This document shows, piece by piece, positions 24,735 through 28,719 of a stretch of 28,719 nucleotides of DNA. The notes under the pieces were generated by a model. The model searched no databases. It worked only from the letters and a program-made list of their open reading frames with translations, and was not told where the DNA came from. Position 1 is the first letter of the stretch, and every line of letters starts with the position of its first letter. Location: positions 1 through 28,719 of the IMG/VR virus record IMGVR_UViG_3300005253_000259. The stretch is one strand, 5' to 3'. Source of the stretch: a virus. The position numbers and the translations under genes were made by a program.

Positions 24735-25430
24735 ATGCCACGTGCTTACGTACTCCTATCAGGAGGCATCGACTCCACTACGTGCCTCGCACAAGCCATT
24801 AAAGACTGGGACGGGCTCGTGTGCGGGGTCAGCTTCAATTATGGCCAACGACATATAAAGGAGATCGATCATGCACGCACAGTCGCGGCGGCACTTAGTT
24901 GCGCCTTTATCGAGAAGGACATTTCTGGGATCATTGGCAAAGGTGGGATTACTGATAACGCCCTTGTCATGCCTCAAGTTTCCTACGACGACCTTCCCAA
25001 AGGCGTCAGTCCCACTTACGTCCCTTTCCGCAACGGAACTTTGCTCTCGTGCATTACATCGCTGGCTGCTACAGACCCGGAAGCTGTGGCCATCTACTTC
25101 GGAGCGCATGCAGATGATGCTGCCAACTGGGCATATCCTGACTGTACACCGGAATTTATCGGCGGAATGGCAAACGCTATCTACATTGGTACGTACCACA
25201 AGCTTCGACTCTATACCCCGCTCATCTTCATGAACAAGGGACAGATCATTGTGCGTGGGCGAATGCTAGGCGCTCCATACGAGCTTACTTGGTCGTGCTA
25301 CGAGGGCGGCGATTATCATTGCGGCGTCTGTCCTACGTGCCGTTCGCGTCGCGAGGGATTCGAGAAGGCTGCCTTAATGGATCCTACGGTGTACGAACAA
25401 ACACCCCCTGCGGGGATAACAGTATCATGA
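24735..25430 (+). CDS. queC: QueC, 7-cyano-7-deazaguanine (preQ0) synthase
   Basis: The ATG at 24735 follows TAGGAG (24722-24727) and is preferred to an upstream frame. SGGIDST at residues 9-15 is the PP-loop ATP site; FNYGQRH and YVPFRN are QueC hallmarks. The C-terminal zinc site has Cys188, 196, 199 and 202 (CYEGGDYHCGVCPTC). Length 231 fits bacterial QueC. It turns 7-carboxy-7-deazaguanine plus ammonia into preQ0 with two ATP. There is no N-terminal glutamine amidotransferase fusion, unlike the Gat-QueC proteins of some phages. Other pathway genes follow on the same strand. Confidence 0.95.
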   Translation: MPRAYVLLSGGIDSTTCLAQAIKDWDGLVCGVSFNYGQRHIKEIDHARTVAAALSCAFIEKDISGIIGKGGITDNALVMPQVSYDDLPKGVSPTYVPFRNGTLLSCITSLAATDPEAVAIYFGAHADDAANWAYPDCTPEFIGGMANAIYIGTYHKLRLYTPLIFMNKGQIIVRGRMLGAPYELTWSCYEGGDYHCGVCPTCRSRREGFEKAALMDPTVYEQTPPAGITVS

Positions 25431-25642
25431 GCAACAACAAAGAACAAGTTCGAGTGCTCCGAGTGCTGGAATATGCTGGCACACGCGATTTTGTTGAGAA
25501 GTCACTGCAAAACCGAAGCGTTAAAAGCGCTATGATAACGCCGGACGGACGTATTAGCGAGGCATTCGTCGGAGGTGTCTTGGGCTTCGCAAAAGTGCAC
25601 GTCGATCGCGACCGCACGCATATAGTGGAGAACGAGTCATGA
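25427..25642 (+). CDS. conserved small phage protein of VRVLRVLEY type (71 aa)
   Basis: Starts at 25427, overlapping the queC stop. VRVLRVLEYAGTRDFVEKSL at residues 8-27 is a pattern I know from many phages, usually with a conserved V-E helix. Then TPDGRI and a closing strand. Function unknown. Being placed between queC and the MazG-like gene, it might be part of the pathway, but the family also occurs in phages without it. Confidence 0.8.
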   Translation: MSNNKEQVRVLRVLEYAGTRDFVEKSLQNRSVKSAMITPDGRISEAFVGGVLGFAKVHVDRDRTHIVENES

Positions 25643-26103
25643 CGGACCTACAAACGGTAGCACAGTACCGAAAGTTCCTCAATGAGACTTCTTGGTACAC
25701 GCACACAGACGAGGGTAATGCATCCGAGCTGATGTACCTAACCTTAGGACTCGTGGGAGAGTCCGGTGAGTTCGCAGATGCGGTAAAGAAGATCATCCGC
25801 GTGTCAGGCACAAAACCCGAGTATGAGGAAGAATTTCACCAGTTAATGGGGGGTACTGGGGGCAAAGAAAACTTAATGGACGAGCTTGGGGATGTATTAT
25901 GGTACCTCGTGAAGCTTGGCGACTTCTTAAACGTATCCTTAGACGGACTGATGGTCCTGAATACCTACAAGCTATATAACCGACTCATTAAACGAGGCAA
26001 GTTCACTAAGGAAGAGATGCCGTGGCCCTTCACTGACCCAGCGATTTCCTATGAGGCCACAGAGGAGTACATGAACGATGTACGTATCGACCAAACGCTA
26101 TGA
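25639..26103 (+). CDS. MazG-like NTP pyrophosphohydrolase (154 aa)
   Basis: The ATG at 25639 overlaps the previous TGA. The all-alpha fold shows the catalytic Glu residues GLVGESGEFAD (Glu41 and Glu44) and the second pair DELGDVLWYL (Glu82 and Asp85), the MazG arrangement that binds Mg2+. It hydrolyses NTPs or dNTPs to NMP and PPi, or cleans the nucleotide pool; phages with modified DNA often carry such enzymes. A G-rich insert (MGGTGGKEN) separates the two Glu pairs. The gene lies between queC and queD, which overlaps its end by 26 bases. Confidence 0.9.
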   Translation: MTDLQTVAQYRKFLNETSWYTHTDEGNASELMYLTLGLVGESGEFADAVKKIIRVSGTKPEYEEEFHQLMGGTGGKENLMDELGDVLWYLVKLGDFLNVSLDGLMVLNTYKLYNRLIKRGKFTKEEMPWPFTDPAISYEATEEYMNDVRIDQTL

Positions 26104-26599
26104 CCACACCTGCGGATACTCCATTGCTTATCGTCAGCACCGAGCGGATTCGCATTGCCGACTCATACATGGCTACTCGCTGGCTTTCGAGTTCGAGTTC
26201 GAAGCAGAAGAGTTGGACGTGCGTAATTGGGTCTGCGACTTTGGAGGATTTAGCACCCTCAAGGACCTCCTTGACGAATACTTTGATCACACCCTCCTCG
26301 TTGCGCAAGATGATCCGGAACTTGAGTTCTTCAAAAAGATTGGTGATCGTGGCCTCGCGAAGGTGCGGGAAGTCTATGCTACTGGATGCGAAGGCCTTGC
26401 AGAGTTCCTCTTCTGGTGGATGAACGAAATGTGGGTCCCGCAGAACGGATATGGGGATAGAGTCTTCTGCCGTAAAGTGCGTGTGATGGAAACCCCTAGT
26501 AACAGCGCCTGGGTAGAATTCTCGTGTGAAGGCTGGGAAAAAGAAAAGGAACGGAGGAGTACTGAAGATGGGTACCCGGAAGGAGCACAGGCATGGTAA
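26078..26599 (+). CDS. queD: QueD-like 6-carboxytetrahydropterin synthase (173 aa), altered Zn ligands
   Basis: The ATG at 26078 overlaps the MazG-like gene. The start region YSIAYRQHRADSHCRLIHGYS aligns with FEAAHRL...KCGRLHGHS of bacterial QueD: catalytic Cys27 and His31 are kept, while the other two zinc ligands are Tyr18 (for His16) and Tyr33 (for His33). DFGGFSTLKDLLDEYFDHTLL follows the D-F...L-x-D-H pattern, and VRVMETPSN carries the late Glu. This Y-variant layout resembles a known proteobacterial/phage subgroup with WVVDFGG and FDHTTLVA. It makes 6-carboxy-5,6,7,8-tetrahydropterin from dihydroneopterin triphosphate, upstream of QueE. Confidence 0.86.
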   Translation: MYVSTKRYDHTCGYSIAYRQHRADSHCRLIHGYSLAFEFEFEAEELDVRNWVCDFGGFSTLKDLLDEYFDHTLLVAQDDPELEFFKKIGDRGLAKVREVYATGCEGLAEFLFWWMNEMWVPQNGYGDRVFCRKVRVMETPSNSAWVEFSCEGWEKEKERRSTEDGYPEGAQAW

Positions 26600-26835
26600 G
26601 CAAAGAAAAGACAATCGAAGTAGCATGCTGCGTCACACCCAGTGGTGATGTGGCCTTCATGCCCAACGATCAGGCTTCGATCAATACCGTGATGGCGCGA
26701 TGGCGTGCGACCCTCACTGAGGAGCAACAGGCTGAACACACAGAAGCAAAGACCATAGGGGGCGTTGTACTCGTGACCATGCTGGCGTCGGAATACTTCA
26801 TGATGAAAAAGGAGCTAGTCCAAGATGGGACGTAA
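26593..26835 (+). CDS. small cluster protein A (80 aa), paralog of the 26825 gene
   Basis: Starts at 26593, overlapping queD. Reads KTIEVACCVTPSGDVAFMP, then a helical middle, EAKTIGGVVLVTMLASEYF. The 26825 protein has the same plan (ETIRIACIVPPDGRVAFIE and EAAKTQGGVVLIDMLKTDY). The protein is a predicted beta-alpha-beta fold. No catalytic residues are evident. The tandem pair lies between queD and queE. Confidence 0.8.
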   Translation: MVSKEKTIEVACCVTPSGDVAFMPNDQASINTVMARWRATLTEEQQAEHTEAKTIGGVVLVTMLASEYFMMKKELVQDGT

Positions 26836-27067
26836 AGAGACAATTCGTATCGCATGCATAGTACCTCCAGATGGTCGAGTGGCTTTTATCGAAGCAGATC
26901 AAGACGGTATTCGCAATGCTTGGCAGAAGTGGCGTGACAGTTTGAACGACGAACAGATTGACGCGCATGAAGCCGCTAAGACACAGGGGGGAGTTGTACT
27001 TATTGACATGCTCAAAACCGACTACGATGGCATCTTTGCAGATAATCGTCACTGGATATCTCAATGA
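26825..27067 (+). CDS. small cluster protein B (80 aa), paralog of the 26593 gene
   Basis: Starts at 26825, overlapping protein A by 11 bases. Same length and plan as A: start strand, W-R/W-Q helix, D/E-E-Q helix, then GGVVL strand. About 40% identity by eye. It ends with an ATGA overlap to queE, so all three are translationally linked. Function unknown; perhaps subunits of one complex. Confidence 0.8.
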   Translation: MGRKETIRIACIVPPDGRVAFIEADQDGIRNAWQKWRDSLNDEQIDAHEAAKTQGGVVLIDMLKTDYDGIFADNRHWISQ

Positions 27068-27828
27068 CGCAACGTAAAGAAGCAAGGATCCCCGTGATGG
27101 AGTGCTTTGGGCCCACTATTCAAGGCGAGGGCCTAATGACGGGGACCGTAACACACTTCCTCAGAACGGGGGGCTGTGGTCTCAGATGCAGCTGGTGCGA
27201 TTCTCTATTCGCAGTCCTTCCAGCGGAGATCAAGAAGTACCGCACGATGATGACCACTGGGGAGATCCTCAAGGCAATCCTCGAGCTGCCCAAAGCACCG
27301 TATATTACATTTACTGGTGGCGATCCATGCATACATAAAGAGCTCGGCACTATCATTCCAGCACTTAATGTCCACGGAATGCACGTCGCCATTGAAACAC
27401 AAGGTCAGTTGTTCCCCGATTGGCTTGTACTTGCAGATGTAGTCACGTTCTCGCCCAAAGGCCCGTCCTCAGGCAATGTCGTAGACATCCACGAAGATGG
27501 CCTATATGACTGGCTTGGTCACCATAGCCCCAAACGACCGTTCAGGTGCTGCATTAAGATCGTGGTCTTCGACGTGGATGACTATAAATACGCAATAAGT
27601 GTATACAATGCCTTGCCCGCGTACTTCTACGATGCGTTCTACCTCACTGCAGGTACACCACTAAATTCCGGCAGCCCACTTAAACGAACAACCGAAGTAC
27701 TACAGAACCAGCACGCGATCGCAGACATGATGCTCAATCAGGCGGAGGAATTCATATTTAATGATAAGGTCCACTTAGGATGTCAACAACATGTCCTTCT
27801 GTGGCCCGACAAAGACAAAGGAGTGTAG
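27064..27828 (+). CDS. queE: QueE, 7-carboxy-7-deazaguanine synthase (radical SAM)
   Basis: The start overlaps the previous stop. MECFGPTIQGEGLMTGT is the QueE opening (F-x-T-x-Q-G-E-G). Cys38, 42 and 45 form the CxxxCxxCD iron-sulfur motif (GGCGLRCSWCDS). FTGGDPCIH follows as the SAM-binding GGEP-type strand, and a late TFSPKGPSSG fits the family. It converts 6-carboxytetrahydropterin into 7-carboxy-7-deazaguanine. Length 254 is a little above the E. coli enzyme (223). Confidence 0.94.
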   Translation: MTQRKEARIPVMECFGPTIQGEGLMTGTVTHFLRTGGCGLRCSWCDSLFAVLPAEIKKYRTMMTTGEILKAILELPKAPYITFTGGDPCIHKELGTIIPALNVHGMHVAIETQGQLFPDWLVLADVVTFSPKGPSSGNVVDIHEDGLYDWLGHHSPKRPFRCCIKIVVFDVDDYKYAISVYNALPAYFYDAFYLTAGTPLNSGSPLKRTTEVLQNQHAIADMMLNQAEEFIFNDKVHLGCQQHVLLWPDKDKGV

Positions 27829-27832
27829 CATA

Positions 27833-28015
27833 ATGGCACTATCCTACTTTGATCCATTCGCGCAGGATCTCGAAGACTCAGGGCCCGAGTACAAAGCCCG
27901 CATGTTGGCACGAGACCCAAGGCGGGCAGCTGAGGGCCAATATGATGAGGACGCTAGAGACAATTGGCTAGCAAAGAACACTAAACAACGACCGGAGAAG
28001 GAGAAGGGGATATAG
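27833..28015 (+). CDS. hypothetical small charged protein (60 aa)
   Basis: The ATG at 27833 follows AAAGGAGTGTAGCATA. Reads MALSYFDPFAQDLEDSG, then RARDP-like charged helices and ends KNTKQRPEKEKGI. No motif. Unrecognised. It lies between queE and the next small gene. Confidence 0.75.
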   Translation: MALSYFDPFAQDLEDSGPEYKARMLARDPRRAAEGQYDEDARDNWLAKNTKQRPEKEKGI

Positions 28016-28016
28016 C

Positions 28017-28397
28017 ATGAGGGTTAAATTTGCTTGGTACGACATCTGGATCGGTGCCTTTTGGGATCGAAAGAAGCGTGCTCTTTACGTTTGCCCATTG
28101 CCGACGCTGCTAATTGAAATTCCATTCGGCCAAGTCAAAGCACCGTTGTCTGACAGGTTAGAGCAGCGTGGATTCACCAAAAGACTTGATCGTGTTTGTG
28201 GCAGCCCTTACTGCGGCAAGGCATTTTCGACTCGTGACCCAATGCAGATGTATTGCTCCGAAGGATGCAAGCCACCAGGACCACCGGACCCACCACCAGG
28301 CGGCCCAATGCCTAGATGGGGTGACGATACAGAGCAGCCAAAACCGCCGCAGAAACAGAACATTAAACAAGGAGCACCAAATGGACCCGTATCATGA
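28017..28397 (+). CDS. small phage protein with C-terminal Zn ribbon (126 aa)
   Basis: Starts at 28017 behind AAGGGGATATAGC. The N-terminal KFAWYDIWIGAFWDRKKR and LYVCPLPTLLIEI form the pattern of a widespread small phage protein family. The C-terminal region has CGSPYC and CSEGC, a likely four-Cys zinc site, followed by a Pro-rich tail (PPGPPDPPPGGP). Domain fusion of two common small phage modules. It overlaps folE by 17 bases. Function unknown. Confidence 0.82.
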   Translation: MRVKFAWYDIWIGAFWDRKKRALYVCPLPTLLIEIPFGQVKAPLSDRLEQRGFTKRLDRVCGSPYCGKAFSTRDPMQMYCSEGCKPPGPPDPPPGGPMPRWGDDTEQPKPPQKQNIKQGAPNGPVS

Positions 28398-28719
28398 AGA
28401 GGCCCTGATTGCGGCAGAAGAGGCTGAGAAGAAGCACATCTCACATAAGGCATACATCCGAAAGGTGCTGAGTGAAATGGGCATCAACGTTCAGGACGAG
28501 AACTTCGAAGGCACACCGGGGCGTTGGCTCTTGTACCTAAGGAGCTATATAAACAAGTACGACCCTGAAGAGGACCTCAAGAAGACGTTCAAATCCAGGG
28601 GCACACTCACGTACGACAACGCAATGATCGTGCAAGTAGGGATCCCCTACAGAGCGGTATGTGCCCATCACCTACTACCGGTTCTAGGGACGGCCCACGT
28701 CGGATACCTCCCCAAAGGC
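28381..28719 (+). CDS. folE: GTP cyclohydrolase I, FolE (5' part, cut by window end)
   Basis: The ATG at 28381 overlaps the previous gene behind AAGGAGCACCAA. 113 residues are visible, about half the usual length. EGTPGRWLLYL fits the T-P-x-R region, and CAHHLLP at 94-100 with AHVGYLPKG matches C-x-H-H-L-L-P...HVGYIP of the active site; Cys94 and His97 are zinc ligands. The residue between Cys and His-His is Ala95, where many FolE proteins have Glu. It converts GTP to 7,8-dihydroneopterin triphosphate, the first step of the preQ0 pathway. The rest of the gene lies beyond the window. Confidence 0.93.
   Translation, partial: MDPYHEEALIAAEEAEKKHISHKAYIRKVLSEMGINVQDENFEGTPGRWLLYLRSYINKYDPEEDLKKTFKSRGTLTYDNAMIVQVGIPYRAVCAHHLLPVLGTAHVGYLPKG

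Follow-up and report, generated by a model that had tools for sequence, protein, structure and literature searches.

A preQ0 gene block cut off within FolE in a viral contig, and the divergent DpdA-like lineage expected beyond its end

Background

The DNA of E. coli phage CAjan carries dPreQ0 (PMC8306585), and all 7-deazaguanine is lost from the phage when its dpdA gene is inactivated (PMC6884629). In the Campylobacter phages CP220 and CPt10 a replacement of 100% of the deoxyguanosine (dG) by dADG has been reported (PMC8306585), and Campylobacter phages were listed by Hutinet et al. (2019) as phages that have no recognised DpdA and a high degree of dADG modification in their DNA (PMC6884629). 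The stretch analysed here (the window) is IMG/VR record IMGVR_UViG_3300005253_000259, a whole viral contig of 28,719 bases that ends within FolE and has a block of genes for the synthesis of 7-cyano-7-deazaguanine (preQ0), with no DpdA found in the window. We consider it very probable that this phage makes preQ0 for the modification of its own DNA by a divergent DpdA, encoded just past the contig end in the gap between FolE and the DNA polymerase gene, and that the modification protects against restriction. GTP would be converted to preQ0 by FolE, QueD, QueE and QueC, a transglycosylase of the divergent DpdA lineage would then take guanine out of the phage DNA and put 7-deazaguanine in, and DNA with 7-deazaguanine would be protected from restriction.

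Gene order beyond the contig end

In all relatives with sequence past FolE, a gene at that place encodes a protein with the predicted fold of tRNA-guanine transglycosylases (TGT), here called X, a DpdA-like protein of about 257 residues. The order at the related loci L001/G002, L003, L004 and L006 is QueC-MazG-QueD-QueE-FolE-X-DNA polymerase, with at most one small open reading frame (ORF) between FolE and X, and the X ORF overlaps the polymerase ORF by 4–26 nt in L001, L003, L004 and L006. Weizmannia phage Youna2 has the order QueC-QueD-QueE-FolE-X-PolA, in Bacillus phage BSTP12 X is located between FolE and the polymerase, and in Brevundimonas phage StAshley (complete, circular, 70 kb) between QueE and the polymerase. 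The StAshley X is STASHLEY_00090, with 266 residues. The window ends at a position equivalent to L001:14101 and the DpdA-like gene starts at L001:14811, which places the expected gene about 0.7 kb past the window end, or, going by L003, L004 and L006, about 0.4–0.5 kb. By this comparison the window phage itself should carry an X gene.

Within the window there is no match to PF01702 (TGT), and hidden Markov models of classical phage DpdA and of the new lineage gave nothing when run unfiltered against all frames (best E-values 1.9 and 0.86), in agreement with the original prediction that the window holds no DpdA. That prediction had left two outcomes side by side, a DpdA outside the window or another fate of the product. 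The former is supported by the end of the contig in the middle of FolE and by X being the next conserved gene in the relatives, while no positive evidence was found for a supply of host queuosine, a DpdA-free modification or a signal molecule. The apparent lack of DpdA is thus accounted for by a contig that stops in mid-FolE together with a transglycosylase that is divergent. The window contig (28,719 bases) and the 72-kb contig G002 (end of L002) break at most 28 bases apart, both in FolE. The end of G002 looks like what we take to be the Nextera transposase adapter (CTGTCTCTTATACACATCT).

Fold and conserved residues of protein X

An AlphaFold2 model of X, built from four homologues (predicted local distance difference test (pLDDT) 90, predicted template modelling score (pTM) 0.89), shows a predicted TIM barrel of the TGT type. 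The best 33 PDB matches of the model are all tRNA-guanine transglycosylases (E = 7e-7), and VIA-align gives Z-scores of 15.8 to TGT 4gh1 and 15.4 to the DNA preQ0 insertase DpdA 7ui4. The DpdA 7ui4 and the tRNA-guanine transglycosylases resemble X in fold (Z 15.4–15.8) and in their aligned catalytic aspartates, but are larger. Compared with the profile of eight classical phage DpdAs, the X profile scores E = 8e-7 with a probability of 92 and shows the same motif blocks.

The 35 dereplicated members of the lineage that were compared all have D63, N64, E68, D94, R166, H183, G186 and D207, and D207 falls within the alignment to 7ui4. The order of the conserved motifs (MDN, PD, QG, HLLG and D207) fits the catalytic framework of TGT, and read in that order D63, D94 and D207 would correspond to D102, D156 and D280 of the Zymomonas TGT. 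A conserved cysteine zinc site is not found in the 35 members, and the phage lineage differs from canonical tRNA TGT both in this and in escaping PF01702.

X is not named by Pfam or NCBIfam, and the PHROGs that it matches carry no function. PF01702 detects no TGT in 10 genomes of the X lineage, and it also misses the classical DpdA or DpdA2 of six phages. Its silence on X therefore carries no weight, and the Pfam TGT model was rejected as a test for DpdA since known phage DpdAs escape it. Among the family members L040–L115, DUF6610 is weakly matched by four, PHROGs family 19058 by 21 and family 20335 by 11; these three families are probably DpdA-like too.

Distribution and relation to described transglycosylases

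IMG/VR was scanned with conserved X peptides, by which 111 loci were confirmed and 80 kept. At least one preQ0 gene was present in the fetched flank at 72 of the 83 X loci inspected, a few contigs being counted twice, and all four at 27 of the 83. In the collection of bacterial and archaeal genomes, the patterns used led to no confirmed homologue of the X lineage. A DpdA of the phrog_887 type (DpdA1) was not found in 16 genomes carrying X, while CAjan scores E = 2e-98, and X in turn is absent from CAjan (DpdA1) and from phage KVP40. The 459-residue protein of KVP40, which we take to be DpdA2 from its place and size, gave no profile match when used as a single sequence. A distant homologue of X (about 308 residues), annotated as hypothetical, is encoded in Vibrio phage Bakedbeans (L025:4842-5765) directly after the dihydrofolate reductase gene.

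A phylogenetic tree separates, with support 99/98, the eight classical DpdAs from the X lineage, which stands on the same side as the proteins of Campylobacter phages CP220 and IBB_35 and of Cellulophaga phage phiST. The window relatives and the Campylobacter proteins form separate sub-branches, and some branches are long, leaving the details unsure. The transglycosylase-like protein of CP220, CPt10 and IBB_35 is presumably the Campylobacter phage enzyme that Cui et al. reportedly named DpdA3 in 2023. Like X, the CP220/IBB_35 protein is short (258 residues) and shares the invariant aspartates, and hhalign indicates full-length homology (probability 99.9, E = 5e-32, residues 2–254). It differs in that its identity to the proteins of the window relatives is about 22%, with a place in its own sub-branch, and the gene in CP220 is not adjacent to the preQ0 genes as it is in the window group. 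Protein CGPG_00065 of phiST, taken to be M4SLA5 by length, also resembles X (profile E = 4e-12, template modelling (TM) score 0.74 between predicted structures) and is encoded near FolE, QueE and QueD, but has 18% identity and a separate branch. The CAjan system shares with the window group the four preQ0 genes and a transglycosylase between the FolE and DNA polymerase genes, its known DpdA lying in the slot that corresponds to X; in contrast, the CAjan enzyme is of another lineage, the gene order is different and there is no added MazG-like gene.

The preQ0 gene block in the window

The genes from position 24735 to the contig end form a tight, operon-like block on the plus strand, with overlapping or nearly touching genes:

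24735..25430, plus strand: QueC, preQ0 synthase, 231 residues (PF06508, E = 4.5e-52; phrog_1550, E = 5e-55)
25427..25642, plus strand: small ORF, 71 residues, no family match below E 0.05 (Pfam, PHROGs)
25639..26103, plus strand: MazG-like nucleotide pyrophosphohydrolase (PF03819, E = 1.5e-6; phrog_229, E = 3.7e-19)
26078..26599, plus strand: QueD, 6-carboxytetrahydropterin synthase (PF01242 (PTPS), E = 1.7e-17; phrog_2389, E = 5.9e-37)
26593..26835, plus strand: 80-residue protein a, no Pfam or PHROGs match, paralogue of b
26825..27067, plus strand: 80-residue protein b, no Pfam or PHROGs match, 4-nt overlap with the start of QueE
27064..27828, plus strand: QueE (PF04055 (Radical_SAM), E = 6.7e-10; phrog_2076, E = 1.6e-32)
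27833..28015, plus strand: small ORF, about 60 residues, no Pfam or PHROGs match
28017..28397, plus strand: ORF of 126 residues, Cys-rich over a short stretch, with no Pfam or PHROGs match below E 0.05
28381..28719, plus strand: FolE (GTP cyclohydrolase I), of which the first 113 codons precede the contig end (PF01227, E = 6.5e-15)

The cluster is real and was correctly read in the original prediction, which called it complete: all four enzymes are there with the motifs that had been quoted for them, namely CAHH in the N-terminal half of FolE, Cys27 in QueD, CGLRCSWC in QueE, and SGGIDST and the four-Cys zinc site in QueC. The word complete is slightly too strong, as the C-terminal half of FolE is cut off. 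The nearest solved structure to QueC is QueC 2pg3 (E = 2e-28), and QueE matches the solved QueE 5tgs with E = 1.6e-35. The 71-residue ORF shares 4 nt with QueC and 4 nt with the MazG-like gene.

The QueE of the closest relative (L001:12072-13784) has an insert of about 318 residues bearing hallmarks of an intein: it begins at a Cys, ends with VHN before a Cys, and has two LAGLIDADG-like motifs. The insertion point is precisely the third Cys in the CxxxCxxC motif of radical-SAM enzymes, and the QueE of the window is without the insert.

QueD of the window retains Cys27, the Asp-His pair and the Glu, but Tyr replaces two of the three His of the canonical zinc site (AYRQ and HGY), and the same is seen in the relatives, so that the full three-His site is missing from this QueD and its kin. 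In a motif survey of the QueDs beside the DpdA-like lineage HGY was present in 40 of 50 and HGH in nine of 50, indicating that the window QueD belongs to a variant subgroup and is not one broken gene.

The original prediction had also drawn attention to the MazG-like enzyme and the two paralogous proteins, which are indeed clustered with the que genes. The MazG-like gene lies between QueC and QueD also in L001, L003, L004 and L006, but this synteny is limited to the close clade. The two 80-residue proteins are 43% identical to each other, a single copy is present in L001 and L004, and none was found in L003 and L006; they have no Pfam or PHROGs family, and their model (pLDDT 80) has no convincing fold match in the PDB. 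Given this distribution, neither the MazG-like gene nor the 80-residue pair looks central to the system.

The genes upstream of the block, for a ligase, a primase-like and a resolvase-like protein, a helicase, an exonuclease, a Sak4-like protein and single-strand-binding proteins, constitute a replication module. The only tRNA gene of the contig, tRNA-Ile (GAT), is located at 1297-1376.

The modified base and its density

The likeliest product is dPreQ0 or its amide dADG, since no QueF is recognised and no amidotransferase is fused to QueC, as read from a partial genome of which more than half would be unseen if its length is like that of the StAshley genome (70 kb). Matches to QueF in Youna2, BSTP12 and StAshley were rejected as they fall on FolE, which is of the same superfamily. 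The QueC of BSTP12 is, by annotation, fused with an amidotransferase.

Modification in the window phage may be dense rather than sparse, as the X lineage includes the protein of the Campylobacter phages CP220 and CPt10. The placement of the X gene against the polymerase would suit a dense modification coupled to replication. A tentative proposal, which we consider rather unlikely as it stands, is that the X lineage brings about a 7-deazaguanine substitution of most or all guanines in the DNA of the window phage and of its relatives, the cultured StAshley among them.

Alternative explanations

A modification of the phage's own DNA by X has several points to contend with. The DpdA-like gene itself is absent from this contig, which stops inside FolE, and no overlapping contig was found in the viral contigs with an exact 42-base probe. 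The sequence matches of X to solved TGT and DpdA structures are weak, 7ui4 coming first in a profile search of the PDB with E = 0.03. The metal site of the predicted QueD is altered, and its activity is therefore not guaranteed. The activity of X on DNA, finally, is suggested by fold and neighbourhood, and enzymes of the TGT fold also act on tRNA.

This last point is the basis for a different view of X, as a tRNA-guanine transglycosylase that acts on phage or host tRNA, and the best fold matches of X are indeed bacterial tRNA TGTs. The DNA enzyme DpdA 7ui4, however, fits about equally well (Z 15.4 against 15.8), X is shorter and has no conserved Cys zinc site, its gene lies where CAjan has its DpdA, which is known to act on DNA, and a homologue is present in CP220, whose DNA is modified. 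We regard a tRNA substrate as the least probable of the explanations considered, and X would act on DNA. The phage might instead have no transglycosylase of its own and make preQ0 to boost the queuosine in host tRNA and hence translation, a role that has been proposed for preQ0 phages without a recognised DpdA (PMC6884629) and that would agree with the absence of DpdA from the window. This too is very improbable, if somewhat less so than a tRNA substrate for X, given the TGT-fold gene in every relative that extends past FolE, the link between the X lineage and preQ0 genes at 72 of 83 loci, and the report by Hutinet et al. that the viruses they analysed lacked Q-specific genes (QueA, QueG, QueH) (PMC6884629).

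Between these two in probability, and likewise improbable, is a route in which a phosphoribosyltransferase, a kinase and ribonucleotide reductase bring 7-deazaguanine into the nucleotide pool ahead of replication and the polymerase incorporates it, X doing something else. A route independent of DpdA was once suggested for Campylobacter phages (PMC6884629), and in StAshley a phosphoribosyltransferase gene adjoins FolE (L008:15302-15772), with genes for a deoxynucleoside monophosphate kinase and ribonucleotide reductase nearby. This phosphoribosyltransferase was present in StAshley only, of the five genomes or contigs tested, and the route was rejected on this count, whereas X is present in every relative with enough sequence beyond FolE, and CP220, with its reported full replacement, has a TGT-fold homologue.

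Implications

With DNA modification by the X lineage as the preferred explanation, an apparent case of preQ0 without DpdA is resolved by a truncated contig and a transglycosylase that Pfam and PHROGs fail to recognise. The X lineage is large, is not named in the standard libraries and is related to the enzyme of phages with complete guanine replacement. Its profiles and the motifs IMDN[SG]xxE, PD, VxQG, HLLG and D[ST]xxP point to probable 7-deazaguanine in the DNA of uncultured phages that at present would count as phages without DpdA. StAshley is a cultured phage with a complete genome in which the density of the modification can be measured directly. If the replacement of most or all guanines holds, genome-wide guanine replacement would be common in environmental phages and no peculiarity of Campylobacter phages.

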